Shown: one piece after another, positions 16,456 through 38,993 of the stretch
How positions within the stretch are numbered: the first letter of the stretch is position 1
Layout of the letters: each line of letters begins with the position of its first letter
Assembly: GCF_014203095.1 (NCBI RefSeq)
Contig: NZ_JACHIG010000008.1
Coordinates: 186,001 to 250,000, forward strand
Direction of reading: 5' to 3'
Origin: Prosthecobacter vanneervenii
Lineage (GTDB): Bacteria > Verrucomicrobiota > Verrucomicrobiia > Verrucomicrobiales > Verrucomicrobiaceae
Length of the DNA stretch: 64,000 nucleotides
Notes under the pieces: model-generated
Seen by the model: only the letters and a program-made list of their open reading frames with translations
The model's database searches: none
Told to the model about the DNA's origin: nothing
Translations under genes and position numbers: made by a program

Positions 16456-16492
16456 GCGTGGATAGCTCAGTGGTAGAGCGGCTCGTTTACAC
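16456..16492 (+). tRNA. 5' half of host tRNA-Val(UAC), split by the island
   Basis: GCGTGGA acceptor strand, TA, D-arm GCTC-AGTGGTA-GAGC, G, anticodon-stem strand GCTCG and the full 7-nt anticodon loop TTTACAC (16486-16492), after which homology to tRNA stops abruptly. The missing 3' half is at 44697-44741. Joined at TTTACAC the two halves give a complete tRNA-Val(UAC): GCTCG pairs with CGAGT, acceptor GCGTGGA pairs with TCCGCGC (one G-U), and CCA is encoded. As it stands the gene is interrupted and should be non-functional. Confidence 0.9.
16473..16492 (+). other. attL: left attachment site
   Basis: Contains the core TTTACAC (16486-16492) preceded at a fixed distance by GTAGAGC (16473-16479). 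The same GTAGAGC-6 nt-TTTACAC arrangement occurs at the right end (44684-44703), where the left arm comes from the element. So element and host att sites share both the 7-bp core and a 7-bp outer block. Sequence to the right of 16492 is island. Confidence 0.8.
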
Positions 16493-16599
16493 TTCTTGCG
16501 AGGCCGTTTCCCTGGGGTGGACAGGATTGGACAAATGCCCATTTCACTAGGGAAAGTGTCTTTTGGCGGAAGGCTCAAAAAGACAGGTTTTCTGTCGTC

Positions 16600-16620
16600 G
16601 GGGGCAACATTGGGGGTAAC
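16600..16620 (+). repeat. Left-end GGGGG(C/T)AAC repeats, candidate recombinase arm sites
   Basis: GGGGGCAAC at 16600-16608 and GGGGGTAAC at 16612-16620, same orientation, 12 bp apart. The same nonamers recur at the right end (44548-44556, 44589-44596, 44601-44609) and upstream of the internal integrase (39528-39576). Placement about 110 bp inside the core fits arm-type sites of a tyrosine integrase, but they could also be regulator operators. Confidence 0.5.
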
Positions 16621-16647
16621 AGAACTCCGCACTTTTTCCAGCGGAGT

Positions 16648-16718
16648 GCGGCGTGAGAGATTCGAACTCCCGACCAACTGCGTGTAAAGCAGCCGCTCTA
16701 CCACTGAGCTAACGCCGC
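16648..16718 (-). tRNA. tRNA-Val(UAC), complete copy carried by the island
   Basis: On the minus strand the 71-nt sequence folds as a full cloverleaf: acceptor GCGGCGT/ACGCCGC, D-arm GCTC/GAGC, anticodon stem GCTGC/GCAGT around loop TTTACAC (anticodon TAC), T-arm GGGAG-TTCGAAT-CTCTC. CCA is not encoded. The D-arm and anticodon loop are identical to the split host tRNA-Val, whereas the acceptor and T stems differ, so this is a diverged homologue, not a duplication of the target. It would restore decoding by the disrupted isoacceptor. Orientation is opposite to the host gene. Confidence 0.93.
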
Positions 16719-16816
16719 TTGTTTTGAGCCGCGCAAAACTGCGGCACGTTCGCAGTCATGGCAAGAGCATAATTCGGAAGATCGCGAAGTGGCGTGACGT
16801 GGTGGAATTTGCCAGC

Positions 16817-17482
16817 CTAGCTTGGCAAACTCAACCCCGCCCCTTCTGCTTTGCTCGGAAGACGTGTGTTCGACACGATCTCAACGCCTTTGGCTTGTTC
16901 AACCAGCGCCGCGAAAGCTGCTTGGGTTTGCAGCTTCTTTTTTTCATCGTCGTTTAGCTCAAGTTTGGTTTCGCCATCTGGCCTTTGAGTGGTGCTTTGC
17001 ACCTTCACTTCAATCGGTTTGGGCAGTGGTTTGAATGAAGACTCAAGGAACTGCCCGATCCCTTCCGGGGTTTGCATGTTGTCAGGAACGGGAACGCTCT
17101 CGGTGAGCGTCAATTTGCCATTGCCATCCATGCGCCCTTTGAAAAGCATTGTCTGGCCGTGCTCGTTGGTCAGGCTGACGATGCGGAAATCGTCTCCAGT
17201 TTCAGCGTTTACTCCCACGCGCTCCGTCAAAAACTTCTTTCGCCCTTCTGGGGTATCAAGACCGGCTAGGTGAATGGCTCCCGCTTTCAGAGCAGTGGGA
17301 GCGGACTCCTCTCTCAAAAGGTGTCTCTGGAGCATCCCCACCACAGAGTCTAACGCGTCGGCAAGCACGCTTCGTGCCCCAGAAGCCGACTGATACTCTG
17401 CACTCAGAGCGCCTGCCTGATTGACTGCGCTTACCACCGCATGTTTGTCGTATGCAGTGAGGTCGAATTTCCCGTCACCCAT
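16817..17482 (-). CDS. Island protein of unknown function, conserved-looking, soluble
   Basis: A 221-residue protein from the ATG at 17482, preceded on its strand by AGAGGGGGG, 4 nt from the start, which decides this start over the longer open frame (to 17845). It has no signal peptide or membrane segment; the middle reads as mixed alpha/beta (RKKFLTERVGVN..GDDFRIVSLTNEHGQTMLFKGRMDGNGKLTLTE) and the end is charged with possible coiled coil (ELNDDEKKKLQTQAAFAALVEQ). I do not recognise the family. It is the first gene inside the left end, 98 bp from the island tRNA-Val, and about 220 bp downstream of a small ORF and ardC. Confidence 0.7.
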   Translation of the reverse strand: MGDGKFDLTAYDKHAVVSAVNQAGALSAEYQSASGARSVLADALDSVVGMLQRHLLREESAPTALKAGAIHLAGLDTPEGRKKFLTERVGVNAETGDDFRIVSLTNEHGQTMLFKGRMDGNGKLTLTESVPVPDNMQTPEGIGQFLESSFKPLPKPIEVKVQSTTQRPDGETKLELNDDEKKKLQTQAAFAALVEQAKGVEIVSNTRLPSKAEGAGLSLPS

Positions 17483-17576
17483 TTTACCCCCCTCTTCATC
17501 ATTTAGCCCACTGGCAGAACATCCAGCATAGCGCACCCGCGTTAATTTTGCATTACACTGGCGCAAGCCATTGATT

Positions 17577-17595
17577 GGGATGCATTTTGCATCCC
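17577..17595. repeat. Perfect inverted repeat (8-bp stem)
   Basis: GGGATGCA-TTT-TGCATCCC in the 220-bp gap between the small ORF at 17703 and the gene at 17482. There is no T-run on either side, so it is not a typical terminator. It may be an operator or structured leader element of the downstream gene. Confidence 0.45.
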
Positions 17596-17702
17596 CTGGG
17601 CCGCTCTTGCGGCCCGTCGGGGTGGTGTGGGCGGGCAAATCCAAAAAGTATTCCGCAGAGCGAGCAAGCGAGCGGCGCGTCTGCCGGGAAAATCCGCTGC
17701 CC

Positions 17703-17921
17703 CTATCGGGGCAGTGCTTCCATGTGCAGGTGCAGCTTTCGGTCATTGGCCATCCGGCACGAGAGCGAAACGGCGCGGCGGTAGCTGAGGCAATGATAAA
17801 CCGTTGTGCGCGGCTGGCGGTCTTGTGTCGAGATGACGGCGACACGCCACGCGGGGCGCTGCCTTCCGTTCACGGTTGCGGCCCCCTTGTGGGGGCCGGT
17901 CATTTTGACGAACGCATTCAT
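17703..17921 (-). CDS. Small basic protein translationally coupled to ardC
   Basis: A 72-residue ORF whose ATG (17919-17921) overlaps the ardC stop as ATGA. The product has a patterned C-terminal part (RVAVISTQDRQPRTTVYH.., SYRRAVSLSCRMANDRKLHL, ending HMEALPR) suggestive of a small alpha/beta fold, and is rich in Arg and His. I recognise no family. The coupling and the regular pattern argue for a real gene; against it, a perfect hairpin CGGCCCCC-TTGT-GGGGGCCG lies within its first 45 nt, so the region may instead be structured non-coding sequence. Confidence 0.5.
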   Translation of the reverse strand: MNAFVKMTGPHKGAATVNGRQRPAWRVAVISTQDRQPRTTVYHCLSYRRAVSLSCRMANDRKLHLHMEALPR

Positions 17922-18817
17922 GGGCGGGCGTCCTCCTGCGCAAGGTTCAAGATGTAGTTGGCGGCTTTCTGCGCCTGCGATGCGGCGCGGATGATCCAGC
18001 CTTTAGCGTCCTTGCTTTGCAGGGCGTTAATCCAGCCTTGCAGGTAGGCGGCGGAGTTGGTGAGTTCGTCCTCAATGATGCCAGCATGGGCATTCAGGAA
18101 CGAAGCGGCCATTTCTGCTACAAGCTCTTCCTCGGCGTAGGTCTTGCGAGCGGTGTCGCCGTCGGCGCTGATGCCGCGATTCTCCAGCAAGGTCTTGCGG
18201 GCAAGGCGTGAAGCATGGCCGGTGCTGTGGGCCAGCTCATGAAAAAGCGTGGAATAATACGCCTCCTCGCCTTCAAAAAATCGCCCCTCTGGCATGTGGA
18301 CGCTATCGGTTGCGGGACGGTAGCAAGGAACCGCTGCCCCCTCGCGGATGGCTGGGGCGCTCGGCATGGCTGCCACGATGGCGCGGGCGCGGTCGGTCTT
18401 ATCGGAAAGGGAAAGCTCCGGCAGGTTCTCAGGCGTGGGGAACTCGATGCCCTCAATCTGCGAAGCATGAAACACGGTGTAAGCCCTCAAAAAGCGGCGT
18501 GTCTCGCCCTCGCCTTCCTCGGCATGGCTGCCCTCGTCCTGCTTGTTGTAGGTGCCATACTTCACCACAAGCGAACCTTTCTCTCCCTTGCGGACGTGTC
18601 CGCCAAGCTCCTTTGCCTGAATGAAGGTCAGGAAAAACGGGGACGTGCAACGAAGGCTGCCCAAAAGAAAGACGTTAATCCCCTGATAAGCTCTGCCGGT
18701 GGCAAAGTTGCGAGGAAACCCAACCTTTGAAAAGTATGGCGATTTCCACGGGATGACCCCGGCTTGTAGTTGGTCGATGATGCGGTCTGTAACCTGTGTG
18801 TAGATGTCTGATTTCAT
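17918..18817 (-). CDS. ardC: ArdC-type antirestriction protein (ssDNA-binding domain plus zincin)
   Basis: A 299-residue protein with the two ArdC parts: an N-terminal ssDNA-binding domain (about 1-125: IYTQVTDRIIDQLQAG.., VIPWKSPYFS.., GRAYQGINVFLLG..) and a C-terminal zincin-like metallopeptidase domain with HELAHSTGH at about 194-202 and the later glutamate in YAEEELVAEMAA. ArdC proteins protect incoming plasmid DNA from restriction and are common on conjugative and mobilizable elements, fitting the island. The start at 18817 is chosen because AGGAGA stands 7 nt upstream; the frame is open to 18982. Also called DUF1738/ArdC N-terminal family in databases. Confidence 0.9.
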   Translation of the reverse strand: MKSDIYTQVTDRIIDQLQAGVIPWKSPYFSKVGFPRNFATGRAYQGINVFLLGSLRCTSPFFLTFIQAKELGGHVRKGEKGSLVVKYGTYNKQDEGSHAEEGEGETRRFLRAYTVFHASQIEGIEFPTPENLPELSLSDKTDRARAIVAAMPSAPAIREGAAVPCYRPATDSVHMPEGRFFEGEEAYYSTLFHELAHSTGHASRLARKTLLENRGISADGDTARKTYAEEELVAEMAASFLNAHAGIIEDELTNSAAYLQGWINALQSKDAKGWIIRAASQAQKAANYILNLAQEDARP

Positions 18818-19364
18818 GATGATTTCTCCTGTTTCGGTTTTGCGAAAAGCACTCACGCGCGCGCAAAACATGAGTGCCAAAAGCCGGAGGAACGGGCGGG
18901 CAGTCACAGGGAGGCTCCAAAGGAGGGTGCCCTTTAGGGACAGCCTTTGGATGCCCTTGACGGACCGAACGTCTGGAGGCATCAGAGCCGCCTGATTATG
19001 AGGGCGGCGTTACTTCACGCGGCCTAGCGTGGACTTTGCTGGCACGGAGGCGGTTTCAGCGCAGTCGCAGTGAAACGGAGCGAAGCTGAGGACGCCTTGG
19101 TGCGCTTAAAGGGTGGAACTGGCAGGGTTCATGAAGAAGACGCGGGTCGGCCCATGCCGACGAAAAGCGGCGTTTCGTGAATGGTGCCAGGCGGCAGGAT
19201 AAAACCACCTGCGCAGCATGGCGGGATTGGGAAAGCGCAGCGGCCAATACCCGCCTTGCTGCCTGATCGGTGGACGGGGAGCAAGCTGGCCTTGGGGACG
19301 GATGCGCCGCGAGTGACGAAGGAGGGAAAGCGGGCGCAGTCACGCCGCAAGGCTTCGGCCAAAA
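18818..19364. other. Gene-free GC-rich region upstream of ardC
   Basis: About 550 bp without a credible gene; frames here are uninterrupted only because of high GC. It contains the paired motifs CCAAAGG (18908-18914) and CCTTTGG (18942-18948), an inverted repeat resembling those of the putative oriT region at 36780-36995. The region should include the ardC promoter, but I see no clear -35/-10. Confidence 0.4.
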
Positions 19365-19472
19365 GGTGGGCTTGCTCGCGGCGGGTGGTGCGGAGCTGAG
19401 GGCGTTACGGGACACCTCCCGTTAGAATGGGTAGCGCCGCACGCAGTAGGCGCGAGGGAAAGGCTTTTCCCG
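19365..19472 (-). repeat. Three-hairpin repeat, copy 1
   Basis: A roughly 108-bp segment about 90% identical by eye to copy 2 (20229-20335), with a 72-bp core also present in copy 3 (21000-21071). The core holds three inverted repeats: ACGGGA-CACC-TCCCGT (19407-19422), GCGCC-10 nt-GGCGC (19434-19453) and GGGAAA-GGCT-TTTCCC (19456-19471). It ends 8 bp past the stop of the 87-residue gene, so it would be the 3' UTR of that gene or an intercistronic structured element. Confidence 0.75.
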
Positions 19473-19479
19473 CCCTCTC

Positions 19480-19743
19480 TCACTCCACGTTGTATTCATC
19501 ATCAGGAATGTGCGCCACCTCCGTAACGTAGTATTCGAGACGATTCACAAATCGGCAGCCGTTAACGATAACTGCATCGCCAGAATCAGGGCAGTCAACC
19601 AGCGTCCAGATTTTATTGGGGGCCTGCGTCTTGAGGAATTCCCAATCGTCATGCGTATCGAAGGCAATGTGGTCAGTGCCGGGTTTGGTGATGGGCTTGA
19701 ACTGGTCGAACCATACGCCGTAATCGAGCTGAATGAACGTCAT
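19480..19743 (-). CDS. Small orphan island protein (87 aa)
   Basis: Starts at the ATG at 19743, preceded by GGGAGAG about 8 nt upstream. The product (MTFIQLDYGVWFDQFKPITK.., ..DWEFLKTQAPNKIWTLVDCPD.., ..VNRLEYYVTEVAHIPD) is acidic and globular-looking, without signal peptide or membrane helix. I do not recognise a family. It lies 4 bp downstream of the 44-residue ORF and 8 bp before repeat copy 1, in the string of small genes between ArdC and the PIN protein, a position where anti-defence or accessory proteins are common. Confidence 0.65.
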   Translation of the reverse strand: MTFIQLDYGVWFDQFKPITKPGTDHIAFDTHDDWEFLKTQAPNKIWTLVDCPDSGDAVIVNGCRFVNRLEYYVTEVAHIPDDEYNVE

Positions 19744-19747
19744 GGGC

Positions 19748-19882
19748 CTACTCTCCCTTCGCTTTAGTTTTGAGAGCTTCGGCAGCCTCCAGCCACTCTT
19801 GCCCAAGTATCTCTACGTCTGGGTCGTTCAATGCCCATTCGAGCACATGCAGCAGTTCCAGTTCTAGTTGAGTCAATTGCAT
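19748..19882 (-). CDS. Very small acidic helical protein (44 aa)
   Basis: MQLTQLELELLHVLEWALND.. to ..EAAEALKTKAKGE. The start at 19882 has a strong AAAAGGAGA 6 nt upstream, and the stop is 4 bp before the next gene, so a two-gene transcription unit is likely. The sequence is leucine- and glutamate-rich and predicted alpha-helical throughout. No family recognised; the ribosome binding site is the main evidence. Confidence 0.6.
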   Translation of the reverse strand: MQLTQLELELLHVLEWALNDPDVEILGQEWLEAAEALKTKAKGE

Positions 19883-20228
19883 GATTCGTCTCCTTTTCAG
19901 TGTTGAGGCTGCGCCTATCGCGGCCTGATGGCCTAGCCAGAAAGGCCCCATGAGGCGGGACGGAGTGAACCGATCACAGCGGAGAATTGGGGGAGACCTT
20001 CAGGGGGAACCTATTGTCCGCTTGAACGGACTGACGGGGACTTTAGCGATGCCATAAACAGGCACGATTGCGCAGGCGTCGGCAGAGGAGACGCACATGC
20101 TGTTGCATTTGAACGTGCTGGGCAGTGAGCTTGAAGCGCAGCGGAGAGAGAAGCTGCCGGGCAACCACTTCGGGAGGCATGGGAAGCAAGCTGGCCGTTG
20201 GAACGGTAAAGCCGCAGGCCCGTCCAGC
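19883..20228. other. Gene-free GC-rich region upstream of the 44-aa/87-aa genes
   Basis: About 350 bp, no credible gene. It carries several short palindromes (for example GGCC blocks around 19920-19945) and a segment with GTCCG..CGGAC near 20016-20030. It presumably includes the promoter of the two small genes, but no sigma-70 motif stands out. Confidence 0.35.
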
Positions 20229-20335
20229 GGTGGGCTTGCTCGCGGCGGGTGGCGCGGAGCCGAGGGCGTTACGGGACACTTCCCGTTGGAATGGGTAGCG
20301 CCGCACGCAGTAGGCGCGAGGGAAAGGCTTTTCCC
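20229..20335 (-). repeat. Three-hairpin repeat, copy 2
   Basis: Same element as copy 1. Hairpins: ACGGGA-CACT-TCCCGT (20271-20286), GCGCC/GGCGC (20298-20317) and GGGAAA-GGCT-TTTCCC (20320-20335). Differences from copy 1 fall mostly in loops and linkers (CACC versus CACT, GTTAGAA versus GTTGGAA), while stems are kept. It lies downstream of the DUF6876-type gene, separated from it by an intrinsic terminator. Confidence 0.75.
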
Positions 20336-20352
20336 ACTAAACGCAGGGATTT

Positions 20353-20391
20353 GAAAACAAGAACCCCCGCCCGGTGGATACCGGGCGGGGG
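20353..20391 (-). terminator. Rho-independent terminator of the DUF6876-type gene
   Basis: On the minus strand a perfect 12-bp stem CCCCCGCCCGGT with its complement around the 4-nt loop ATCC (20364-20391), followed by TTCTTGTTTT. It starts 10 bp after the stop codon of the upstream gene. Confidence 0.8.
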
Positions 20392-20400
20392 TATGCCGAG

Positions 20401-20763
20401 CTAATACTCGCTCGGCAACATCATCACGTTGTTCGTGAAGTAGAGAGAGATTTCATCCAGTGGGAAATCGGTGAATTCGATTTCCTTGGAGAAGACGATT
20501 CGGCCATTGCCATCGTCGCAGGCCAGTGTGGCGGCGTGGTCAGCATTGACCTTCAGACGCCACGTCTGGAACTCTTCGGCGGTGACGGCTGGGATGGATT
20601 GAGCGAAAGCGATCTCATCAACCAGCCAGTAGGCACCGCCTGCCTCTGCGACATGCTGAACACCATCGGTGTAAAGCACGTTGCGTGCGAGGCCGTGGCG
20701 ATACCACTGGTCGGTTCCGGTGAATTGGCGAAGATCGGCTTTGCTGAGTGTTTTCTGTGTCAT
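20401..20763 (-). CDS. DUF6876-family protein (120 aa)
   Basis: The product begins MTQKTLSKADLRQFTGTDQW, continues YRHGLARNVLYTDGVQHVAE.. GGAYWLVDEIAF.., and ends ..EISLYFTNNVMMLPSEY. This QFTG..WYRH..LYTDGV..AYWL pattern matches what I remember as DUF6876, a plasmid/phage-associated family of unknown function; that assignment is from memory. The ATG at 20763 has AAGGAGCC 5 nt upstream; the longer frame to 21042 is rejected. It has its own terminator and a three-hairpin repeat behind it. Confidence 0.75.
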   Translation of the reverse strand: MTQKTLSKADLRQFTGTDQWYRHGLARNVLYTDGVQHVAEAGGAYWLVDEIAFAQSIPAVTAEEFQTWRLKVNADHAATLACDDGNGRIVFSKEIEFTDFPLDEISLYFTNNVMMLPSEY

Positions 20764-20999
20764 GTTTGGCTCCTTGTTTATTGATTGCCCCATTGCGGGA
20801 CAGCGGTTCAAGGAGCTGGGGTCATGAGGCTGGCGGTCATGCCCCGAACACGGGAGCGCAGCGAATGGAGCGGGCACGGGGTTGACGGCCAGACGGCCCC
20901 AGCCAAAACCGCGCCCCAGGCCGCAAGGGCAAAAACAAGGAGCCGCACAGAAAGCACGGAGCCGAACCAGAGCGTCAACGGACCGACGCAGAGAGCCAC
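20764..20999. other. GC-rich spacer upstream of the DUF6876-type gene
   Basis: 236 bp with no credible gene. It contains GGGGTCATGAGGC..GCGGTCATGCCCC (20818-20845), an imperfect palindrome. Frames through it share a few residues with frames through the other repeat regions only because the three-hairpin element is repeated. Confidence 0.3.
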
Positions 21000-21071
21000 T
21001 GAGGGCGTTACGGGACACCTCCCGTAATGGGTAGCGCCCCACGCAGTAGGCGCGAGGGAAAGGCTTTTCCC
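21000..21071 (-). repeat. Three-hairpin repeat, copy 3
   Basis: Core-only copy: ACGGGA-CACC-TCCCGT (21010-21025), GCGCC/GGCGC (21033-21052) and GGGAAA-GGCT-TTTCCC (21056-21071). The linker between hairpins 1 and 2 is 4 nt shorter than in copy 1. The element ends 8 bp past the PIN gene stop, the same distance as copy 1 from its gene. Confidence 0.75.
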
Positions 21072-21078
21072 GAATGAG

Positions 21079-22107
21079 TTATGTATCGAGCATGTCCCAT
21101 TCGTCACCTAGCGCCCATCGAAGTGCAGAGAGCTTTCCGTTAATCATTCCCCACTCAAAGTCATCCCAAGGCCCGAGATTTTCCAAGCCATATTTCTTCT
21201 CAACTTTCCGCGCAGATTTCTTCGCGCCCTCCCATATGTCTCGCTGAATAGTTGTCTCCCGTGGGTCTCTAGCCGGGTAGGCTTCTTTGGCGACAATTTT
21301 AATCAAGCCACATTCAATCTTCTCTCTGCGAATTTGGTGACGATTATACCAAACCTTGTCGATTAGCTCTTCAATAGAATCAAGGATTTCGCTCAATTGC
21401 CTTGGCTCTTCGGTCCACTCGTGCTCCATCATCAAATCTGACACCATCACAGGTTGCACACGTTTCAACGCCTCGGTGAGCTTGATGAAGTATAAGGATT
21501 TAATTTTGCTGAAGTAGTTGGAGAAGTCGGGGTGTGGCAATCGATGGTCAGCGTTGGGATGGCTGAAGTCTTTGGTGTTGTGTGTCACGAAGGCAAAACG
21601 CAAGCCCCTATTGGCAGCGGAAAGCATGTCCCCGTATATCTCCATCAGCATCGCATCCGCCATGCTGTTGCGTTGTGTGTGAAATGGAGCCTTTTTGGCA
21701 AGCGCCCGTTCGGCAGCTCGCAGCTTCACGGCGTCTGACACTCCCACCATCTCGGCAGCATCAAATAGCTTCTCTAAGCGTCCAATCGACTCAATGGCGC
21801 TTTCCCCCATGCTGGGCAGCCTGAAATCGAGGTCGCTGAGCTGTTCTAAAACGATTCGCTTCGTTTTGCCGCCACCAAGTAGCTCAACTGCTTGCTTAGC
21901 TCTCTTGAGGGTGCTTGACAGGCTACGCTGGCTGTCCTCCACAATGCGAGCCTTATTACGGGTGAATTCATCACGAACGATGGTCGGCACAATCAGTGTA
22001 ACCTGCTTTTGCCGGACCAGCTCCTCCAAAACGCCAATAGTAGCCTGCTGCTGGTGGTCCTTTGCCATGTCAAGCCAGACACAGGTATCAATTAGCAGTT
22101 TGAACAT
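21079..22107 (-). CDS. PIN-domain nuclease-like protein (342 aa)
   Basis: N-terminal PIN domain with the acidic residues of this RNase fold: Asp7 in FKLLIDTCVWLD, Glu47 in IVRDEFTRN, Asp near 148 in SMADAMLMEIYGDML, and the HNTKDF segment near 175. The remaining 160 residues form a helical C-terminal region of unknown role. The layout resembles long PIN proteins of the DUF4935 type. No small antitoxin is adjacent, so it is not a simple VapBC pair; it is the last gene of the seven-gene defence block, 50 bp after the helicase fusion, suggesting an RNA-cleaving effector. That role is inference. Confidence 0.8.
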   Translation of the reverse strand: MFKLLIDTCVWLDMAKDHQQQATIGVLEELVRQKQVTLIVPTIVRDEFTRNKARIVEDSQRSLSSTLKRAKQAVELLGGGKTKRIVLEQLSDLDFRLPSMGESAIESIGRLEKLFDAAEMVGVSDAVKLRAAERALAKKAPFHTQRNSMADAMLMEIYGDMLSAANRGLRFAFVTHNTKDFSHPNADHRLPHPDFSNYFSKIKSLYFIKLTEALKRVQPVMVSDLMMEHEWTEEPRQLSEILDSIEELIDKVWYNRHQIRREKIECGLIKIVAKEAYPARDPRETTIQRDIWEGAKKSARKVEKKYGLENLGPWDDFEWGMINGKLSALRWALGDEWDMLDT

Positions 22108-22157
22108 ATGAACTTCCTTAATGTGGAGTGGACACCAGTTGCGAGAGCGTCCGAATG

Positions 22158-24308
22158 TCAGGTGCGGAGATCTTCAATAAACTCTGACGCAGGCGATATG
22201 CCCGTAATTAAAAGCTGGTCGCGAGCGCGGGTGCAGGCGACGTAAAGAAGGTGCCGCTCTGTGTTGTAAACCTCTTCAAGGTCGGCGTCATCGGAAATGG
22301 ACTCGATGCGTTCCTGCAACGGCAGAACCTCATCGTCGCAGGCCATGACGGCCACTGCCCGGAACTCAAGCCCTTTGGCAAGGTGCATGGTGCAAATGGA
22401 CGCAAAGCCGCTGGTTGTCTCCACTTGTTCATCAAGCGTCTTGAAGGGAATTCCTGCTTTTTGAACCGCCTCGCGGGCACGTTCCAATTGGGCCTCGGAG
22501 CGAACGAAAATGCCGAATTCGTGAGGGGCAATCCCCTCGTCCTTGCGAGCGGTGAGCCAATCGGCAACAGCCACTATTTCCTCTTCTTCGGTCTTCAGGA
22601 TGCGGATGTCAGGCGGTGGACCGTTGAAAACTGACACCGTTTCATCCCTTTGCTCCTTGTTCCCGTCCACGTCGCTAATCTCAGGACCAAGCAAGCGGTC
22701 GGCCTGGGTGCGGATTTGATGCGAGGTTCTGTAGTTGATTCGCAGGTTGCGAGAGCGTCCTCGAATATCCACGCCAAGAGCGAGCCACGAAAAAGGCTGC
22801 TGGAAAATCCGCTGCCCAAGATCGCCAGCGAAGAAAAGAGCATCGGGGCGTTTAGCTCCGATGGCTGCAAGAAACCGCAGATGTGCGATGCCGATGTCCT
22901 GGGCCTCGTCCACTACGGCAAAGTCAAAGGGTGGGTTCTTGTCTTTGTGAATGGCTGCTGCCAGTTTCGTAAACATCTCTGAGACAGTGACCAGCTTGCG
23001 GGCAGCAAGCTGGGAACGGACATTCTCGAAGATTTGCCAGAGAAGCGCCCGTTGCGCTTCCGGCAAACGTGTCTTGCGGCCAAGCCGGACAACATCCCGA
23101 TAAGACTCCCATGTGTTGAGCTGCCATGCGTCAACGATCTGCTCCCATTCGGATAAAAGGAACTGGCTGCTGAACTTGTGGCCGGCAACGGCTTTGGACG
23201 CTTCGGCGATGATTTTCAGAATATCCGAGCGCGAGGCAATGTTTGCCGTTCCGAAGTGCGCTTTGTAAAGGCGGCTGCCAATCGCCTCGATGGAGTGGAC
23301 TTCTAGCCGCTCCGCAAGGCGAGGCTCGTTGCTGATAAGCCTGCGCAGCTTTGAGCGAAGCGAGTTCGCCAAGATGTGCGAGAACGTCGTGAGCAGCACC
23401 CTGGCGTTGGGATTGTTGCGAGCCAGAAACACGGCGCGATGAACGGCAACGATGGTTTTGCCTGTTCCGGCAGAACCAGACACACGGGCTGGGCCGCTGT
23501 AATTGCGCTCGACTGAATGCCGCTGGTCGGGGTGAAGGAAGACAGACCACTTGTCCCAAGGGAATTCGAGCGCCCTTTCCAACTCTTCGACGTTGGACAT
23601 CACGCGGAAACGGCGCTGTGCGTCTGGATGCTCGAACGGATTTGCCGTGACAGGAGCGGTCTGCGGAATGCGAGGTTTCCCACCTGTGGCGAGTTCCAGC
23701 AATGCCTCTGCTGCCTCCGTGGGCAAACGGTCGGACAAGAGCAGCAATGTGTCCTCGTCCGCTTGGCGAACATCTGCGAGCCATTCGCTGGGCACGCCGT
23801 AGGACAGCAGTTCATCATCCGAGCATTGCGCGAAGAGCTGCCTTTTGCGGGGCTTAGGCTCTGGCAGTTCTTGCTGGACGTAGGTAGGGACGAAAATCTC
23901 GTGAACCGTCTCGCGGATTTCCACCAACTGAGCAGCACCGGTCTTGGGGTGCGTCTCCAGCTTGCGCCGTTCCGCCCAATCATACGCTTTGTCGTGGTGG
24001 TCAACGTAACACAAGAGCAAGTTGGCGTCGCTCTTGTGGACAATCAGGCGGATGTCGCGATTAACGCGCACCGACCAGAAATTCTTGTCCCTCGCCTTGT
24101 CGAGCTTGTGGAAGCTCATGCCGGGATTAGCCGGGTTGATCTGCAAGTCGAACGCCGTCGTCTTCACGGCCTTCTGCTCGTCGCCGGTGAGACGAGCAAG
24201 GCTGTCGGTAAATGTGTCTGCAATGCGGAATTCTGTGCCAGTGCTTTTCAAGAGAGTGTCCTCTTCACCAGGATGGTATTTTGAAGAGGCGACCTTGATC
24301 GCTCTCAT
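22158..24308 (-). CDS. RelE/ParE-like domain fused to a UvrD/Rep-type helicase
   Basis: A 716-residue protein. Residues about 38-115 (DSLARLTGDEQKAVKTTA.. to ..NLLLCYVDHHDKAYDWAERR) look like a RelE/ParE toxin fold. From about 260 it is a superfamily I helicase: GSAGTGKT at 287-294, DEAQD near 468, INYRTSHQIR, HLAKGLEFRAV and the C-terminal YVACTRARDQL. It should be an ATP-dependent helicase or translocase, with the toxin-like part possibly acting as a targeting or RNase module. The ATG at 24308 overlaps the ABC-3C ATPase gene by 44 nt and has no Shine-Dalgarno; a TTG at 24251 with AGAGG 8 nt upstream is an alternative start that would still keep the RelE-like part. Confidence 0.85.
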   Translation of the reverse strand: MRAIKVASSKYHPGEEDTLLKSTGTEFRIADTFTDSLARLTGDEQKAVKTTAFDLQINPANPGMSFHKLDKARDKNFWSVRVNRDIRLIVHKSDANLLLCYVDHHDKAYDWAERRKLETHPKTGAAQLVEIRETVHEIFVPTYVQQELPEPKPRKRQLFAQCSDDELLSYGVPSEWLADVRQADEDTLLLLSDRLPTEAAEALLELATGGKPRIPQTAPVTANPFEHPDAQRRFRVMSNVEELERALEFPWDKWSVFLHPDQRHSVERNYSGPARVSGSAGTGKTIVAVHRAVFLARNNPNARVLLTTFSHILANSLRSKLRRLISNEPRLAERLEVHSIEAIGSRLYKAHFGTANIASRSDILKIIAEASKAVAGHKFSSQFLLSEWEQIVDAWQLNTWESYRDVVRLGRKTRLPEAQRALLWQIFENVRSQLAARKLVTVSEMFTKLAAAIHKDKNPPFDFAVVDEAQDIGIAHLRFLAAIGAKRPDALFFAGDLGQRIFQQPFSWLALGVDIRGRSRNLRINYRTSHQIRTQADRLLGPEISDVDGNKEQRDETVSVFNGPPPDIRILKTEEEEIVAVADWLTARKDEGIAPHEFGIFVRSEAQLERAREAVQKAGIPFKTLDEQVETTSGFASICTMHLAKGLEFRAVAVMACDDEVLPLQERIESISDDADLEEVYNTERHLLYVACTRARDQLLITGISPASEFIEDLRT

Positions 24309-26061
24309 CGTGTAATGTTAGGATGATTTCGTTCTGGCTGAAAACAGCGCCATCTTCAGCGGCACGCGCAGGCAAGTCAGAGTCGATCAACGTAATAACT
24401 GGCTGGACGTTTAGGTCGGCATATTTGCGGAGCACTGTGAGCAAGTTTTCCTTCTTGCGATCATCCAGCGATTCAAACACGCCATCGTGGTAAACAAAGC
24501 CGGGGAACTTTTCAGCAACATGGGCACGCAAGATTGCCAAATCGAAAGCCACGCAAAGCAGTTTACGGTAAGTGTGCCCCAAGTCAGCGCTAGTCGAATT
24601 GCCAGATTCATCAAGAATTTCGGCTTGGAATTCCAAATGCCCAGCCTGGTTCAATGCAACGCTAAGCAAAGCCTTTCTGTTTATTACATCCTCGACAATC
24701 TCACTGAAGTATAAGCGAATGAGTGAGAAGAGGCTCTTTTCATCTGCATTCTGCTTGTTGGTATCCTCTTCGATCTTTGCTTGGAGTTGAGTTTTCGCTT
24801 CTTTGAGAGCGCGAATCTCTGTGCGGAGTTCCTGCAACCTATGAAGTGAATCCTTCTGACGTTCCAGCGAAGTAATGTCAGCTCTCAGCGTCACCAGCTC
24901 GTCAGACACGCGCTTGTATTTATCGAATACATCGGTGGTGCTCAGAAACGAAAGTGCATCGGATCGCTTCTTGCCGAGGGATGTTAATTCGGCGTTTATT
25001 TGCTTTAGGGCACCCTCAATTTCGGTGAGTTCTTCACGCAAGTAAACGCCACGCTCTTCGGTTATAGCCTTGTTGAATTCAATAAGCTGCTGAAAGTCTT
25101 TTTTTATCTGTCCTTGAAACAATATGCCTGCTTCTTCAAACAAGCGCTTGGCTTCTTCAGGACTGAACAAGACTTGCTCCTCCTCCAGAGATGCGACAAT
25201 CTTCTTCTTATTCTGATTCAATGAATATCGCTGCGAATTCAAATCAGCGATAGTGGCATCGAAATCGTTAACCAATTGTTTGGTCTTTTCTTTGTCTTGT
25301 GAGCGAAAGTCAAAAGCAGTCAAAAGCGCAGTCTTCTTTTCGGCCTCCTGCTTTTTCAGAAGCAGTATCCCTTCAATCTTGCTGATGTCCTCAGCAGACC
25401 CCCCCAATTCTTTTTTAATTACGTCGGCGTCACTCTCCTTTTTTGAAAGCTCCTCCTCTTTCTGGTAGTGCTGCTCTAACAGTTCTCCGTCAAAGCCCAA
25501 AATGTGAGCAAGGAAAGGTTTCCATTGAGAATGTCGGGAGGCGAATTTTCGCAGATGAAATACTTCACGGAAATCATCCTGGGAACGGAGAAGGTATCCA
25601 AGGATTTTGCGAAATGCCCAAGGTTTAAGCGTTCGCCAATCGAGAAGCCCGTCGAGTAGTTCCTTGGAGCGATCAAAGGGAACATTGCAGTGATCCCAAC
25701 TTGAATCAGGTAACTCAGAGAAGTCTTGGTCGCTTGCCGAGTGTCGCTTGAAGCTAATCTGCGACGCCGCTTCGACCCCTCTCCGAACCGTGACAAACGA
25801 TCCCGCCTCCAATTCAATCTCCAGATAGAAGACAAAATCCTTGAAAATCTCTTCGTGTTTGAACAAAAAAAACTTCGGATCACGTCCTGATAAAAAGCAG
25901 AAATCAAGCAGACGCCCCAAGGTGGTTTTGCCAAGATTGTGCGTATCTTTGTTTCGATTTTCTGGCAAACGAATCTCAGCCATAACCACGTTCAAGCCTG
26001 AAACGAAATTCACGGGCGTGAAGCTATCGGGCTTGTTTGTGTAAAGTTTAGACAGCTTCAT
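24265..26061 (-). CDS. ABC-3C system SMC/RecN-like ATPase (DUF2326 type)
   Basis: A 598-residue protein: N-terminal ABC head half with the P-loop NLGKTTLGRLLDF at about 42-54, long coiled-coil arms (about 190-440, rich in E, K, L), and a C-terminal half with HTYRKLLCVAFDLAILRAH and FVYHDGVFESLDDRKKENLL, which would supply the signature and Walker B-type regions. This is the architecture of the DUF2326 ATPases of ABC-three-component (ABC-3C) conflict systems. It overlaps the middle component upstream by 14 nt and the RelE-helicase gene downstream by up to 44 nt. The protein presumably senses invading DNA and licenses the nuclease component; that is inferred from the family proposal, not shown by sequence. 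Confidence 0.85.
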   Translation of the reverse strand: MKLSKLYTNKPDSFTPVNFVSGLNVVMAEIRLPENRNKDTHNLGKTTLGRLLDFCFLSGRDPKFFLFKHEEIFKDFVFYLEIELEAGSFVTVRRGVEAASQISFKRHSASDQDFSELPDSSWDHCNVPFDRSKELLDGLLDWRTLKPWAFRKILGYLLRSQDDFREVFHLRKFASRHSQWKPFLAHILGFDGELLEQHYQKEEELSKKESDADVIKKELGGSAEDISKIEGILLLKKQEAEKKTALLTAFDFRSQDKEKTKQLVNDFDATIADLNSQRYSLNQNKKKIVASLEEEQVLFSPEEAKRLFEEAGILFQGQIKKDFQQLIEFNKAITEERGVYLREELTEIEGALKQINAELTSLGKKRSDALSFLSTTDVFDKYKRVSDELVTLRADITSLERQKDSLHRLQELRTEIRALKEAKTQLQAKIEEDTNKQNADEKSLFSLIRLYFSEIVEDVINRKALLSVALNQAGHLEFQAEILDESGNSTSADLGHTYRKLLCVAFDLAILRAHVAEKFPGFVYHDGVFESLDDRKKENLLTVLRKYADLNVQPVITLIDSDLPARAAEDGAVFSQNEIILTLHDESDQGRLFKIPSW

Positions 26062-26299
26062 TTGAAGGTCCCGTAAATTCTATTGCGTCAGTTTTTGGAA
26101 GGTAGTTAATGCGTCCCATTAAAAAGAGAAAATTCAGCGCAGGGAGAAACAAGACATCCCCTCCAGCTACGCTTTTCTTTGCGAATGAGCGCAGTTTTTC
26201 ATACTCCTCGACCCGACGAGCCTTGAGATGAACGAGCATCAGAAGTGCGACGTTAATCACCGTGCGATCTGGATGGGAATGTTTACTTGGTCTCAGCAT
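26048..26299 (-). CDS. ABC-3C middle component (MC6-like)
   Basis: An 83-residue protein beginning MLRPSKHSHPDRTVINVALL and ending in a winged-helix-like stretch (VLFLPALNFLFLMGRINYLP..). The MLRPSKHSHPDRTV start is what I remember as the hallmark of ABC-3C middle component type 6. The start at 26299 is supported by GGGGAGG 6 nt upstream, inside the end of the preceding gene, with a 17-nt overlap. An ATG further up (26320) is less likely. Middle components are thought to bridge the ATPase and the effector subunit. Confidence 0.82.
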   Translation of the reverse strand: MLRPSKHSHPDRTVINVALLMLVHLKARRVEEYEKLRSFAKKSVAGGDVLFLPALNFLFLMGRINYLPKTDAIEFTGPSNEAV

Positions 26300-27248
26300 C
26301 GCCGACCTCCCCAATGTCACAGTTCCAATACATATAGAACAGCACCACCCGCGTCAATCGCTTGTGCCCATGCTGTCTCAAGACCGCATCTCTGCCAAAG
26401 AGTAAGTCCACAAGATATTCCATCACTTCGTCAAAAGTTTGATAATCCTTGCGTTTTGCGATGATTTTCAACTGGAACTCATCGACCACAGATTCATACA
26501 TTTGAAGTAGCTTGTCGTTCTCAGGGGCCGCCAAGAATGTTCTGATCTGTGCCGTCTCCTTGAGATACCTTTTGCGCTGCGCCTCCGCATATTCTGGGGT
26601 CATGTTGTTCAGCGCGTTCTTCTTGTCGTATGAAATTCGCGGCGCTGGTGGATCGTCCAAAATCTTGCTCAATTCCTCTCTCTGAAGAGCAATAGCCTGA
26701 ACAACTTCGGCCAAATCATCTGGACTCACTATGAGGGGGGAGTCGATTGGGTCGAGGCTCGCCAGTTTTGCTGCTTCTGGAAAAAGTTTCAGCCATTTCT
26801 CCAGTTGCTCAATATCGCACAAATAGATGGATGCCTCTGGAATGCCGCACTCTTTTGAAATGTGAGCACGAATGACGCTCTCTGTGTTGCCGCCAAGACG
26901 ACGGTTTGCAAAAAGCATGTAGTGGTCCAGTTGCTTGCCGTCTCGAAGCGTCTTAATCCGACCGATCTCTTCACCAATCACGTTCTGGTTGCTTTCCGCA
27001 TTGAAGAAATCTGATTCCGAAAAACGGCGATTGTAGCCATTCGTATGCTTTGCCTGAATGATGGTGGTGCCGACCCAAGGTGCAGCCTTGCTCGGATGCA
27101 GTTCAGCGGTTCCCACAAATTTGGCGTCTCGTCCACCGTCTGGCCCCTCTGCGAATCCTTGCACCGAAATTCCGAGCAACTTTTGGCATAAGAAAACCAC
27201 GAGGTCCTCAAATTGCTTATCGCTCAAATCTTCGTATGCGTATTTCAT
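26283..27248 (-). CDS. ABC-3C effector/CTD subunit with a restriction endonuclease-like N-terminus
   Basis: A 321-residue protein. The first about 150 residues form a PD-(D/E)xK-type nuclease domain: GPDGGRDAKF (Asp at about 41) and TTIIQAKHT (QAK at about 65-67), as in Mrr-like enzymes. The C-terminal third (about 210-321, ..YEDRLKYLKET.-like helices through VVLFYMYWNCDIGEV) corresponds to the C-terminal domain used by ABC-3C systems to contact the middle component. It starts the three-gene ABC-3C cassette, 42 bp after the type III methyltransferase gene. Likely a DNA-cleaving effector. Assignment rests on the catalytic motif plus the two following genes. Confidence 0.83.
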   Translation of the reverse strand: MKYAYEDLSDKQFEDLVVFLCQKLLGISVQGFAEGPDGGRDAKFVGTAELHPSKAAPWVGTTIIQAKHTNGYNRRFSESDFFNAESNQNVIGEEIGRIKTLRDGKQLDHYMLFANRRLGGNTESVIRAHISKECGIPEASIYLCDIEQLEKWLKLFPEAAKLASLDPIDSPLIVSPDDLAEVVQAIALQREELSKILDDPPAPRISYDKKNALNNMTPEYAEAQRKRYLKETAQIRTFLAAPENDKLLQMYESVVDEFQLKIIAKRKDYQTFDEVMEYLVDLLFGRDAVLRQHGHKRLTRVVLFYMYWNCDIGEVGDAETK

Positions 27249-27290
27249 CAGGTGTTCGTCTCTGGGTCGTTTGACAGCGGATTGTAAACG

Positions 27291-30074
27291 TTAAACACGA
27301 AAAACTTTCATCACTTCGTCGCCAAGGTGATTGATGACTTTGACTGCGATGCGGCCCTTCTTCGGCTTGTCGAAGGGGCGCGAGGTGTCGCTGTTCAGCG
27401 TGGCCCACGCATCAGCATCAATCTCCGCTTTCAGCGTGGTCTTGAGTGAATTGTAGGGGTCGTTGGCACCGAGGAAATAGGCATGGCGCACGAAGAAGCT
27501 CTCTTCGTTGTAGTCGGTATCAATAAACCAGCAGGCGATGCCGTCCGCGCCATCGCTGCGAACCTCGCCGGTGTTGGGGTGGAACACGTCAACGCCGTTC
27601 ACTTTCACGCGGATTCTGCCGTCTTTCTCTGGCAGGATGGTGATGTCAGGTTCACCGAAGATGACGAACAGGTTGCCCTTGCCGGTGTTCTTGAGGTCGT
27701 CGGACATGTGAAGGTCTGCGTTCATGCGGGCCTTCAGCACGGGGATTCTTCCCAGCTTATTGAACTCGGTCGTGTGTGCCTCGAAGTTGAAGGCGCAGGC
27801 GATCAGGACATCAAAGTCAGCGTCCCCTGCTTCACGAGCTGCAAGCACGAGGTCTTGGCGCTGCACGGTTCCGAATTCCGGGCCGATGAAAATGGCGGCG
27901 CGTTTCTCCGTGTCGCCCTCCATGTAGCGTCCTTCGCCGCAAACCAGTTCACCGGGCCAAGGTGTAAGAGCGGTGAAGACAATCTTGTCTTCCTTGTGTG
28001 CCTGCTGCACGCCTGCGGCCTTGAGGTTTTCTAGAACCATCTGCGGGAAGGTCTGCTTGGCTCCATACTCGGCCTCACCCTCTTTGAGCGTGTCAATCAA
28101 CTCATCGTCTTCATCAACGCCCAGGACTCGATGCGGCGAGAGACTTTCCACTGTGAAGGGACCGGCCACGCGAACCTTCTTCTTGTCGTCGAAAGGCTTG
28201 TCGTAAAGATACTCATAGTCGCCTTTTGCCGAAATAGAGGCGTCGATTTCTTTCTGCCGTGCAATCCGTCCCTGCCACCAGTCAGAGTGCATTTTTTTTG
28301 CAGCATCCGACCACTTAGCGTCGGCCTCGCGTGGGATTTCCCACTCCTGCCAGGTCTTCTTGAGCGAGTCATTCAACGATTCGCGCAATGGTTCCAGCTT
28401 CGCTTGCCACTTCTCCCATATCACATCTATCTCTGCATTGTTGGCAATAGACTTGAGGGTGATGTGAGGGACACGCTCATAGACAAAGCCTTGGCGGATA
28501 TTTCCATGCACGGGCTGTGAACTTGGCGCGGAGCGGGTGATTTCCGCTTCCTTGAGTTGGCCTTCACGGGAGTCAGCCAGCAAATAATACGGGTAACGTG
28601 CGCCCATGATGCGGGCACGAGCCAAAGCGAGTGCAACGCGAGAGGTGTCAATTGTGATCCAGCGGCGGCCCCATTGCTCAGCGACAGCAGCGGTAGTGCC
28701 CGAACCGCAGGTCGGGTCGAGCACGAGGTCGCCTGGGTCCGTAGTCATCAAGAGACAGCGTTGAATGACCTTCGAGGTTGTCTGAACGACGTAAACCTTA
28801 TTCTGTTCTGCGGTGCCCATCGTGTCTTCCCACAGATTCGGAATGGCCACTGCGGCGAAGTCGTTGAAGAAGATTTTATAATTCACGAACTCCTTGGTTT
28901 TCAGGAGTCGGTTTGACTTCAAGAGCCTCTCCATACCGGCGGCACCTGTTTTCCAGCCGCCTTTTCGTGGCCTCAGCTTGTGCCCGTTGAGGCTGAACTC
29001 AAAGAGAGTGGATTCGCTCGCAGTTTCAGAAGTTAAAGGACCAGCCAGAAAAACTCTTTCTCCTTCCGCCAAAGCCTGTTCGCCGCTTGCCTCGCTTGCT
29101 TTGAGCGGACGAATTGTTCCGTCCATTGCCTGCACCGAACGATACCTAGCACCAGCTCCCTCACGGAGATCCTTTTCAAAGTATGCGGGCCGATATTTTG
29201 CGACTGCTGCATCTTTTGCATACCAAACGATATAGTCCGATATGTTGTCGATGTGGGCTTGTCCCATTCCACCGCTTTTCTTGGTCGTGATTAGACTAAT
29301 GAAATTAGTATCTCCAAAAACTTCATCCATTACTGCGCGCACGCGATGGACATTTTCATCGCCAATCTGCACAAAAATAGAGCCGGAGTCAGTGAGTAGG
29401 TCGCGAGCGACAGTAAGCCGGTCACGCAGGTAGGTGAGGTAGCTGTGGATACCGTCACGCCAGGTGTCGCGGAAGGCTTTGACCTGTTCTGGCTCGCGGG
29501 TGATGTGGTCGGCTTTGCCGTCTTTCACATCGCGGCTGGTCGTGGACCACTGGAAGTTGCTGTTGAACTTGATGCCGTAGGGTGGGTCGAAGTAGATGCA
29601 CTGCACACGCCCACGCAGGCCCTCGCGCTCTGCAAGGCTTGCCATGACCTGCAAGGAATCGCCGAGAATCATGCGATTGCTCCAGTTCTGGTCGTGGGCA
29701 TAGAACTCGGTCTTGTCCGCCCCCTTGGGGATGCCGTTGAAGTCGGCAAACAGGTCAGGCGTTAGCAGCCCTTCATCATGCTGGCGCTCCTTGGTTTCAC
29801 GAAGCAGGTCATCAATTAATGCCTTCGGATGAACCTTCTCCTGAATGTAGAGCGGTGGCGCATGAACCACGAGGTCACTCCAATCCTGCTCGTCCTTCCC
29901 ACGCCAGACAAGCTGAGGGTCGAGGTCGGTGTTGCGCGGATAGCGAATCTGCTTGGGGTTCTGCTGCTCGGCATGGAGCACGGATTGGAACTCGGCAGTC
30001 GGAATGTTCTTCCGCTTCGCCTCTTCGTGCGTTAGCGTTTCGACGGTCTTTGCTGTGGTCGGTTTCTTCGCCAT
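27291..30074 (-). CDS. Type III restriction-modification DNA methyltransferase (Mod)
   Basis: A 927-residue site-specific adenine or cytosine-N4 methyltransferase with DPPY at 163-166 before the SAM motif LDPTCGSGTTAAVAEQWG (near 453), i.e. the beta-class order typical of type III Mod subunits. The region between holds the specificity domain. A C-terminal extension of about 450 residues beyond the SAM motif is longer than in classical Mod proteins. The ATG at 30074 has GAAGGAAAT upstream; the longer frame (to 30191) overlaps the restriction subunit gene. It lies 1 bp downstream of the Res gene. Confidence 0.92.
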   Translation of the reverse strand: MAKKPTTAKTVETLTHEEAKRKNIPTAEFQSVLHAEQQNPKQIRYPRNTDLDPQLVWRGKDEQDWSDLVVHAPPLYIQEKVHPKALIDDLLRETKERQHDEGLLTPDLFADFNGIPKGADKTEFYAHDQNWSNRMILGDSLQVMASLAEREGLRGRVQCIYFDPPYGIKFNSNFQWSTTSRDVKDGKADHITREPEQVKAFRDTWRDGIHSYLTYLRDRLTVARDLLTDSGSIFVQIGDENVHRVRAVMDEVFGDTNFISLITTKKSGGMGQAHIDNISDYIVWYAKDAAVAKYRPAYFEKDLREGAGARYRSVQAMDGTIRPLKASEASGEQALAEGERVFLAGPLTSETASESTLFEFSLNGHKLRPRKGGWKTGAAGMERLLKSNRLLKTKEFVNYKIFFNDFAAVAIPNLWEDTMGTAEQNKVYVVQTTSKVIQRCLLMTTDPGDLVLDPTCGSGTTAAVAEQWGRRWITIDTSRVALALARARIMGARYPYYLLADSREGQLKEAEITRSAPSSQPVHGNIRQGFVYERVPHITLKSIANNAEIDVIWEKWQAKLEPLRESLNDSLKKTWQEWEIPREADAKWSDAAKKMHSDWWQGRIARQKEIDASISAKGDYEYLYDKPFDDKKKVRVAGPFTVESLSPHRVLGVDEDDELIDTLKEGEAEYGAKQTFPQMVLENLKAAGVQQAHKEDKIVFTALTPWPGELVCGEGRYMEGDTEKRAAIFIGPEFGTVQRQDLVLAAREAGDADFDVLIACAFNFEAHTTEFNKLGRIPVLKARMNADLHMSDDLKNTGKGNLFVIFGEPDITILPEKDGRIRVKVNGVDVFHPNTGEVRSDGADGIACWFIDTDYNEESFFVRHAYFLGANDPYNSLKTTLKAEIDADAWATLNSDTSRPFDKPKKGRIAVKVINHLGDEVMKVFRV

Positions 30075-30075
30075 G

Positions 30076-33000: not shown

Positions 33001-33147
33001 CTTGGGAATCGGAGTGATGAAATCCGCCCGTCGTCTCTGCGGGACAATTTTTTGCGTCGGCTGTCCAGATTCATCGAGTTCCCAGTGCTGCTGGGGCCTC
33101 TCGTAGGGCGAATTGAGAATCGGATGCTCGAAAAAGGGGTTGGACAT
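30076..33147 (-). CDS. Type III-like restriction endonuclease, helicase/nuclease subunit (Res)
   Basis: A 1023-residue protein: superfamily II helicase with Walker A LATGAGKTTV (near 180), DEAH-type NDEAHH (near 311) and SATPFFLSGSG, helicase C-terminal motif VIGRALRRQ (near 645), then a C-terminal PD-(D/E)xK nuclease (LPDFIVLID near 932 and LVVEIKGYRRE about 18 residues later). All motifs are intact. With the adjacent Mod gene it should form an ATP-dependent restriction system. The N-terminal start (MSNPFFEHPILNSPYERP) resembles what I recall as the BPTD_3080-type restriction enzymes. The start has AGGAA about 7 nt upstream. It is the first gene of the seven-gene defence block. Confidence 0.9.
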   Translation of the reverse strand: MSNPFFEHPILNSPYERPQQHWELDESGQPTQKIVPQRRRADFITPIPKPKKRKRVASQQDFVFDEGKGLSTKQQQYDATSIINQVRQHVDAWRALPEPSLWQVTPETARLLQHWRHHNFSGVRPFFCQVEAVEVAIWLTEVAPNSKSGKAILEHLAAANKDANPELMRLALKLATGAGKTTVMAMLIAWQTINAARRPTSKTFSRGFLICAPGLTIKDRLRVLQPNDPDSYYASRELVPGDMLEDVNRAKIVITNYHAFKLRERIEISAGGRSLLKGKNGEDLNTLETEGQMLQRVMPDLMGLKNIVVLNDEAHHCYREKPKEEDDEELKGDEKKEAEKNSEAARLWISGLEAVNRKLGISRVFDLSATPFFLSGSGYAEGTLFPWTMSDFSLMDAIECGIVKLPRVPVAENIPGDEMPMFRNLWENIRKDMPKKGRGTSEELDPLKLPTRLQTALQALYGHYEKTFHLWEEKGIKVPPCFIIVCQNTAISKLVYDFVSGFHRTNEDGTTTLENGRLALFRNFDETTGNALPRPNTLLIDSEQLEAGDALDTNFRSMAADEIDRFRREITERTGDQRKAESITDQELLREVMNTVGKHGQLGGSVRCVVSVSMLTEGWDANTVTHVLGIRAFGTQLLCEQVIGRALRRQSYDLNEEGLFNVEYADVFGIPFDFTAKPVISTPQPPRQTIQVKAVRPERDALEIRFPRVEGYRVELPEERLTAEFTEDSILELSPDIVGPSITKNAGIIGESADMSLKHLGDMRPSTLLFHVTQRLLYTKWRDPGEEPKLHLFGQLKRISKQWLDTCLVCKGETYPGLLMYQELADMACNRITAGITRAFVGERPIKALLDPYNPEGSTKHVRFNTSKTDLWETSSSHCHINWIVLDSDWEAEFCRVAEAHPKVRAYVKNHNLGLEVPYRFGSTMRKYLPDFIVLIDDGHGPDDLLRLVVEIKGYRREDAKEKKSTMETYWVPGVNHLQTFGRWTFAEFTEVFQIESDFAAKVADNFNKMVDSATGAATTEGN

Positions 33148-33279
33148 GGGCGGTTCCTGGGCGTCGGGCTGTATTCGTCGGGTTGGTGAAAAACGTCAAT
33201 GCATCCTCACCTCGGCGCATCAGTTTTCCTCTCTTAATTGTCATCGCCCGTTTAATATAGGATTTTTTGGAAATCCGAG

Positions 33280-34514: not shown

Positions 34515-34525
34515 ATAGGGCGGAT

Positions 34526-35203: not shown

Positions 35204-35204
35204 T

Positions 35205-36680: not shown

Positions 36681-36779
36681 GCGGGGATGGATTTAGCAGC
36701 GGCATTTTTTGGCGGCAAGGTAAATCGCGGACATAGGCGGCGAGCGGGGGTTTCAGGGGGTGGTCAGTCCCCATGAAGC

Positions 36780-38152: not shown

Positions 38153-38154
38153 TT

Positions 38155-38502: not shown

Positions 38503-38503
38503 A

Positions 38504-38941: not shown

Positions 38942-38993
38942 GCTTGAAGCGTGTTTTGAAATGAGGCTTATGAGGTAAAGAAAGAGGTAGGTT

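Follow-up and report, generated by a model that had tools for sequence, protein, structure and literature searches.

How can a bacterium keep a mobile element that has split its apparently single tRNA-Val(UAC) gene? This question is raised by a 64,000 nt stretch of the genome of Prosthecobacter vanneervenii (contig NZ_JACHIG010000008.1, positions 186,001 to 250,000; called the window here), which harbors a 28.2 kb island in the anticodon loop of this gene. We propose that the mobilizable-type island split the single tRNA-Val(UAC) gene of its host and replaces it with its own copy, and we give this reading a probability of about 0.85. At the level of sequence it is carried by the split gene, an empty site in relatives, a single intact UAC tRNA gene and recurrence in other genomes. 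In the following, G000 is the genome holding the window and the other G numbers are the genomes compared with it.

The two halves of the host tRNA gene flank the island, with 28,211 bp between the starts of the two cores. Their overlap is TTTACAC, a 7 bp core in the anticodon loop, and the joined halves give exactly the 75-base gene that is present at 100% identity in 12 of 48 genomes of the genus. We compared the proteins flanking the island in the window with 11 regions of the genus that carry an intact gene (the 100% gene or a similar one). In G004 and G008, the intact host tRNA was located between orthologues of both window flanks (open reading frames (ORFs) 13417-14475 and 44758-48039, 82-86% identity), which represents the empty site. 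One flank was matched in G001, G011, G012 and G013, the last of which starts near a contig end, and neither flank in G014, G016, G018, G033 and G236. The window has an extra ORF (14528-16414) between the left-flank orthologue and the tRNA. An initial search with a T-loop pattern gave 14 matches, with 19.5 expected by chance, and its match at 44717 was counted only because of the context in which it lies.

The only tRNA called by ARAGORN in the window was a tRNA-Val with the anticodon TAC. With 73.1 bits it ranked 4 among the 51 Infernal tRNA matches of the whole genome and is therefore not a chance cloverleaf. The sequence-only reading had noticed this complete gene near the left end of the island and its orientation opposite to that of the split gene, and both points were confirmed; it does lie inside the island, at a distance of 153 bases from the left attachment site (attL) core to the tRNA 3' end instead of the 155 bp given before. 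The acceptor stem is GCGGCGT/ACGCCGC with discriminator A, and CCA is not encoded. D-arm and anticodon loop are identical to those of the split gene, and acceptor stem and T stem differ, as had been described, the latter in one pair only. The anticodon stem, overlooked previously, differs as well (CTGC/GCAG in the island tRNA versus CTCG/CGAG). Among the island-type copies, the T-stem pair 52-62 is A-U in some and G-C in others, a compensatory change. Upstream of the gene, TTGCC and a leader resembling CTCAAAACAAG (with one-base variants) were kept in all seven aligned copies and may represent the promoter. The sequence of the terminator-like hairpin downstream recurs in G002 and G445. We expect the gene to be expressed and its product to be charged. 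Coordinates are compiled in the table.

Table. Features of the island and of the split tRNA gene in the window
Feature	Position	Strand	Evidence
Island, attL core to attR core	16486..44703		Split tRNA-Val(UAC), shared TTTACAC; empty site in G004, G008
Host tRNA-Val(UAC) 5' half, positions 1-37	16456..16492	+	100% match to intact gene of relatives; attL core TTTACAC 16486-16492
Host tRNA-Val(UAC) 3' half, positions 31-75	44697..44741	+	100% match; attR core TTTACAC 44697-44703
Intact replacement tRNA-Val(UAC)	16646..16718	-	ARAGORN; 73.1 bits; compensatory T-stem change among copies
Upstream block, presumed promoter	16719..16778	-	TTGCC(A) and CTCAAAACAAG-like leader; alignment of seven island-type copies
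Terminator-like hairpin downstream of tRNA	16582..16596	-	2 sites in region, 0.9 expected by chance
ArdC-like anti-restriction protein	17918..18982	-	Pfam ArdcN 4.8e-32 and MPTase-PolyVal
Variable defence-like cargo: PIN, UvrD-like helicase, DUF2326, ABC-3C CTD12, type III restriction-modification Mod and Res	21079..33147	-	Family matches
TraG/TraD-like coupling protein	35205..36680	-	Pfam TraG-D_C 1.4e-11; 90-97% identical in G024 and G445
MobQ-family relaxase	37202..38152	+	Pfam MobA_MobL 1.9e-63; NCBIfam MobQ 211.7 bits, cut-off 200
IntA, second integrase with arm-binding domain	39481..40779	+	Pfam; 66-68% identical in G445 and G024
IntB, boundary integrase, presumed catalyst	43456..44598	-	Pfam Phage_integrase 1.5e-7; phrog_1 integrase 1.7e-23; 98 bp from attR; relatives beside tRNA genes

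Counting the tRNA-Val(UAC) genes of the whole genome had been suggested as a check. The assembly (6.66 Mb, 33 contigs) is 97.3% complete, and all 51 tRNA places found by Infernal were re-read with ARAGORN. Each of the valine anticodons CAC, GAC and TAC occurred once among them, and the only TAC gene was that of the island. Further intact UAC genes, which had been named as a refutation, were not found. A tRNA array on contig C9 has three Infernal matches without ARAGORN call; they were considered as a hidden Val(UAC) gene and rejected, as their anticodon loops are not those of a valine tRNA. According to the wobble rules, neither a GAC nor a CAC anticodon reads GUA. The codon GTA was found in 14 of the 16 flanking ORFs that were counted (28 of 588 valine codons). 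Since there is a single UAC gene, the other two anticodons do not read GUA and the flanking ORFs use this codon, the island tRNA is very probably essential, subject to the part of the genome that is missing from the assembly.

Neither window junction gave a tRNA call with ARAGORN or Infernal. This bears on the possibility that the island is an ordinary tRNA-integrating element, in which one junction yields a working tRNA and the internal gene is a passenger. Islands in tRNA genes usually leave a working junction, as described for Islander (PMC4383910), and the relatives of IntB in G028, G032 and G006 adjoin an intact tRNA-Val(UAC), with a spare tRNA-Val 5' half elsewhere in the assembly as expected if the tRNA is rebuilt (traced for the tRNA-Val cases). 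Against this stands the right junction (attR) of the replacing islands: in G000 (locus L054) and G445 it matched no tRNA at E ≤ 1, and in G024 it reached 24.3 bits, below the cut-off of 29. Its 5' arm has lost the match to the D stem. We consider an ordinary island with a passenger tRNA extremely unlikely. In three islands, the element arm at attR shows GAGC in register; we did not accept this arm as a decayed tRNA 5' half, because an integrase core site could look alike.

The same arrangement was found in other genomes of the genus. An island-type tRNA was present in 7 of the 48 genomes (G000, G024, G445, G002, G010, G435 and G028); in a sample of 387 genomes of the phylum, which includes few of this genus, it was found only in G000 at E ≤ 1e-24. 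G000, G024, G445 and G002 share a common attL, in which host sequence up to position 37 is followed by TTCTTGCGAGG, and in all four the tRNA-Val(UAC) lies inside the element. A matching attR was seen in G000, G024 and G445, while G002 shows one junction. Of the 25 window ORFs tested, 17 are common to the island of G024 and 18 to that of G445, which is split across two contigs; coupling protein, relaxase, both integrases and a sigma factor are included, and ArdC is only partial in G024. In about 6 kb of DNA to the left and to the right of the islands of G024 and G445, no match to the tested window flank proteins was found. These two islands therefore sit, as judged from these flanks, in neighbourhoods other than that of the window.

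G435 has a similar attL with one core base changed. On its contig C466 (L151), the host tRNA halves are in opposite orientation, suggesting a rearrangement. We did not count G435 as a decayed island: the 7.2 kb that separate its tRNA halves are found outside attL, and since the contig stops 193 bp upstream of the tRNA, it does not include the island interior.

A stand-alone island-type tRNA-Val gene with the upstream block was found in G028 (C7, 133060-133132; L132, L169) beside tRNA-Gly(UCC) and is a possible source or escapee.

This G028 gene leads to another explanation, in which the chromosome had a second, native tRNA-Val(UAC) gene of the island type that was captured, or beside which the element landed, so that the host never depended on the island. 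The gene stands alone in G028, about 148 bp are common to it and the island copy, and its neighbourhood is orthologous to G000 on one side. On the other hand, in the four assemblies with the common attL the tRNA is part of the element and is flanked to the left and right by conserved element sequence, and G000 has no other copy. A host that never depended on the island appears very improbable. Capture of a native gene is compatible with replacement and may be the origin of the island tRNA.

It is also conceivable that the tRNA serves chiefly to counter tRNA-cutting defences or to help with codon supply, and that it matches the broken gene by coincidence. Phage tRNAs have been discussed in such a role (PMC10865867), and the island holds defence-like cargo. 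The island has one tRNA only, of exactly the disrupted isotype and with an unchanged anticodon loop, and in 17 island ORFs GTA makes up only 18 of 421 valine codons, which argues against this explanation. We regard such a coincidence as very unlikely and return to the replacement of the host tRNA as the preferred reading.

Two integrases are encoded on the island. IntB was taken as the presumed catalyst because of its position beside attR and its relatives. In a tree of 22 homologues with several long branches, the details of which are unsure, the IntB proteins of the replacing elements in G000, G024 and G445 formed one group with G019 as sister, within a clade of 12. Eight of the nine other clade members are encoded within about 0.5 kb of an intact tRNA gene (Val(UAC) in G028, G032 and G006, Pro(CGG) in G027, G029 and G011, Ala(CGC) in G005 and G436); G019 has none. 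In all 12 clade members, the TG(M/L)R box is missing its arginine, usually the first catalytic one, and the HxLRH box its first histidine; the other 10 rows of the alignment keep both residues. A displaced first arginine has been described for CTnDOT-type and IntDes integrases (PMC8138268). We found no relatives of IntB in IMG/VR by six peptide patterns and none among PLSDB plasmids and INPHARED phages at E ≤ 1e-5, and the nearest solved structure had an E-value of 0.85. The sequence of IntA, as we read it, keeps these catalytic residues. IntA looks ordinary, and with 66-68% identity between islands it is more diverged than its neighbours.

In gene content, the island corresponds to an integrative mobilizable element, with integrase and relaxase and lacking a full conjugation apparatus; among the 20 ORFs scanned, no transfer-channel family was found beyond the MobQ relaxase and the coupling protein. 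The island is predicted to be transferable. We rejected a prophage, as no phage structural family was found with 20 ORFs against Pfam and 10 ORFs against PHROGs, and relaxase and coupling protein were found instead. The cargo from PIN to Res was seen in the window only and had no counterpart in the parts of G024 and G445 that were compared.

Presence of the island-type tRNA was associated with absence of an intact host gene. An intact host-type tRNA was found in 36 of the 48 genomes, in 34 of them with at least 92% identity and in G007 and G440 with 87%. The intact gene was missing in six of the seven carriers of the island-type tRNA (G000, G002, G010, G024, G435 and G445) and present in 35 of the 41 genomes without it (Fisher p 4.6e-4 for 48 genomes). 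In the 33 genomes of better quality, the host gene was missing in 5 of 5 versus 1 of 28 (p 2.5e-5). That G445 and G443 have no further Val(UAC) gene was judged from the 48-genome comparison only. Several points weigh against the proposed replacement or parts of it. The Fisher association ignores shared ancestry. Six genomes have neither gene (G015, G020, G025, G026, G436 and G443), four of them being less than 90% complete, and G028 has its island-type tRNA at another locus together with an intact host-type tRNA, in an assembly with 8% contamination. The completeness of 97.3% leaves room for a second gene in a gap of the G000 assembly, and no sigma-70 consensus promoter was found upstream of the island tRNA. 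IntB lacks two usual catalytic residues, and IntA could be the catalyst. Finally, G002 had no match to relaxase or coupling protein and only a fragment of IntB. Relaxase and coupling protein were likewise not found in G435 and G028; assembly gaps, or another history in G028, could explain these cases.

We envisage the following mechanism. A mobilizable-type integrative element would have recombined via TTTACAC with the anticodon loop of the single tRNA-Val(UAC) gene. Its attachment site would match the host over little more than the core, and for this reason neither junction would rebuild a tRNA. GUA would then be decoded by the complete tRNA-Val(UAC) beside the attachment site. If the element were excised precisely, the host gene would be restored, while imprecise loss should be lethal, and the replacement tRNA is therefore expected to stay when the rest of the element decays. 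The sequence-only reading had spoken of a tRNA-based addiction. Its central idea, an element that breaks a tRNA gene and supplies a substitute, held up; addiction as it was worded did not, since precise excision would regenerate the intact gene seen in relatives and should leave a healthy cell, unlike the loss of a toxin-antitoxin element, and simple loss is thus predicted to be harmless. Death of the cell would be expected only if the deletion is imprecise or the tRNA is damaged.

G010 suggests that a replacement tRNA has outlived its decayed element. This genome has kept the tRNA together with about 0.55 kb of DNA that aligns to the island of G024. A remnant of the host gene, a T arm, lies 0.9 kb away, and no other Val(UAC) gene was found. 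The assembly is 95% complete and gave no match to IntB (E ≤ 1e-20), relaxase or coupling protein. A short integrase-like fragment beside the remnant was recognised from its translation, not by a family match.

It had also been suggested that the carried tRNA defines the target range. There is some support for this part, as one island tRNA type serves hosts with different acceptor-stem alleles, GCGTGGA in G000, G002 and G445 and GCACGGA in G024. In G032, the tRNA beside the canonical element combines GCACGGA with TCCGCGC, resulting in an A3-C70 mismatch, and the spare 5' half there has GCGTGGA. A replacing element would avoid an acceptor-stem clash of this type, and the changed anticodon stem may protect the island tRNA from its own integrase. 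It is possible, though we suggest it only tentatively, that a non-phage mobilizable family once rebuilt its target tRNA, came to replace it instead and became free from the acceptor allele, protected by the changed stem and able to leave its tRNA behind after decay, so that an essential gene was exchanged for a mobile one.

The logic of a broken host tRNA that is replaced by a tRNA of the element is the same as in tRNA-dependent lysogeny, which was demonstrated experimentally by Guerrero-Bustamante and Hatfull for actinobacteriophages including Fionnbharth, LeBron and Gaia (mBio 2024; PMC10865867). As in these phages, a short core inside a tRNA gene of the host was used for integration, judged from TTTACAC, the empty site and the tyrosine integrase family, and the junction calls gave no rebuilt tRNA at attL or attR. 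Judged from the ORFs scanned, the island is not a temperate phage; it has relaxase and coupling protein, lies in a Verrucomicrobiaceae genome, is known from sequence and has an integrase with an unusual active site. Related actinophage integrases of both modes exist, and the spread of tRNA-dependent integration beyond actinophages was named as an open question there (PMC10865867). In Sinorhizobium prophages resembling Mesorhizobium phage vB_MloP_Lo5R7ANS, the host tRNA-Leu(UAG) is likewise inactivated and replaced by an element-borne tRNA (PMC11476347, PMC12429752); these cases differ in being prophages and in tRNA and phylum. Lactobacillus johnsonii prophage Lj965, according to PMC10865867, also rebuilds no tRNA and carries the cognate one; it again differs as a prophage. 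Canonical tRNA-site islands (Islander, PMC4383910) share integrase, tRNA target, crossover in the anticodon loop and a tRNA fragment at one end. They restore the target from attP, whereas the element in the window does not restore it and brings a separate gene. Among the papers listed by full-text searches of open-licence literature, we found no report of a non-phage mobilizable element replacing its target tRNA. The replacement logic is known from phages, and what appears to be new here is its use by a mobilizable-type, non-phage element; tRNA-dependent integration would thus extend to such an island in another phylum. Empty sites, canonical elements that rebuild the tRNA, elements that replace it and at least one remnant all occur in the genus. 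Such a natural series makes it possible to address the order in which the two modes arose, and a turnover of essential tRNA genes by mobile elements. Programs that recognise islands by a rebuilt tRNA plus a fragment, the principle described in PMC4383910, would probably miss such elements.

Some further observations concern neighbouring subjects. G007 has a variant intact tRNA-Val(UAC) and a host-type 3' remnant 6 kb away (C9, 15461-21591; L129), perhaps due to another integration at this hotspot. The compact tRNA array of G000 on contig C9 (182813-184036; L033), outside the window, contains several low-scoring, non-standard tRNAs. Within the island, near-identical repeats are located at 19365-19471 and 20229-20335 (107 nt, 96%) with a partial third copy at 20999-21072, at spacings of 864 and about 740 bp.
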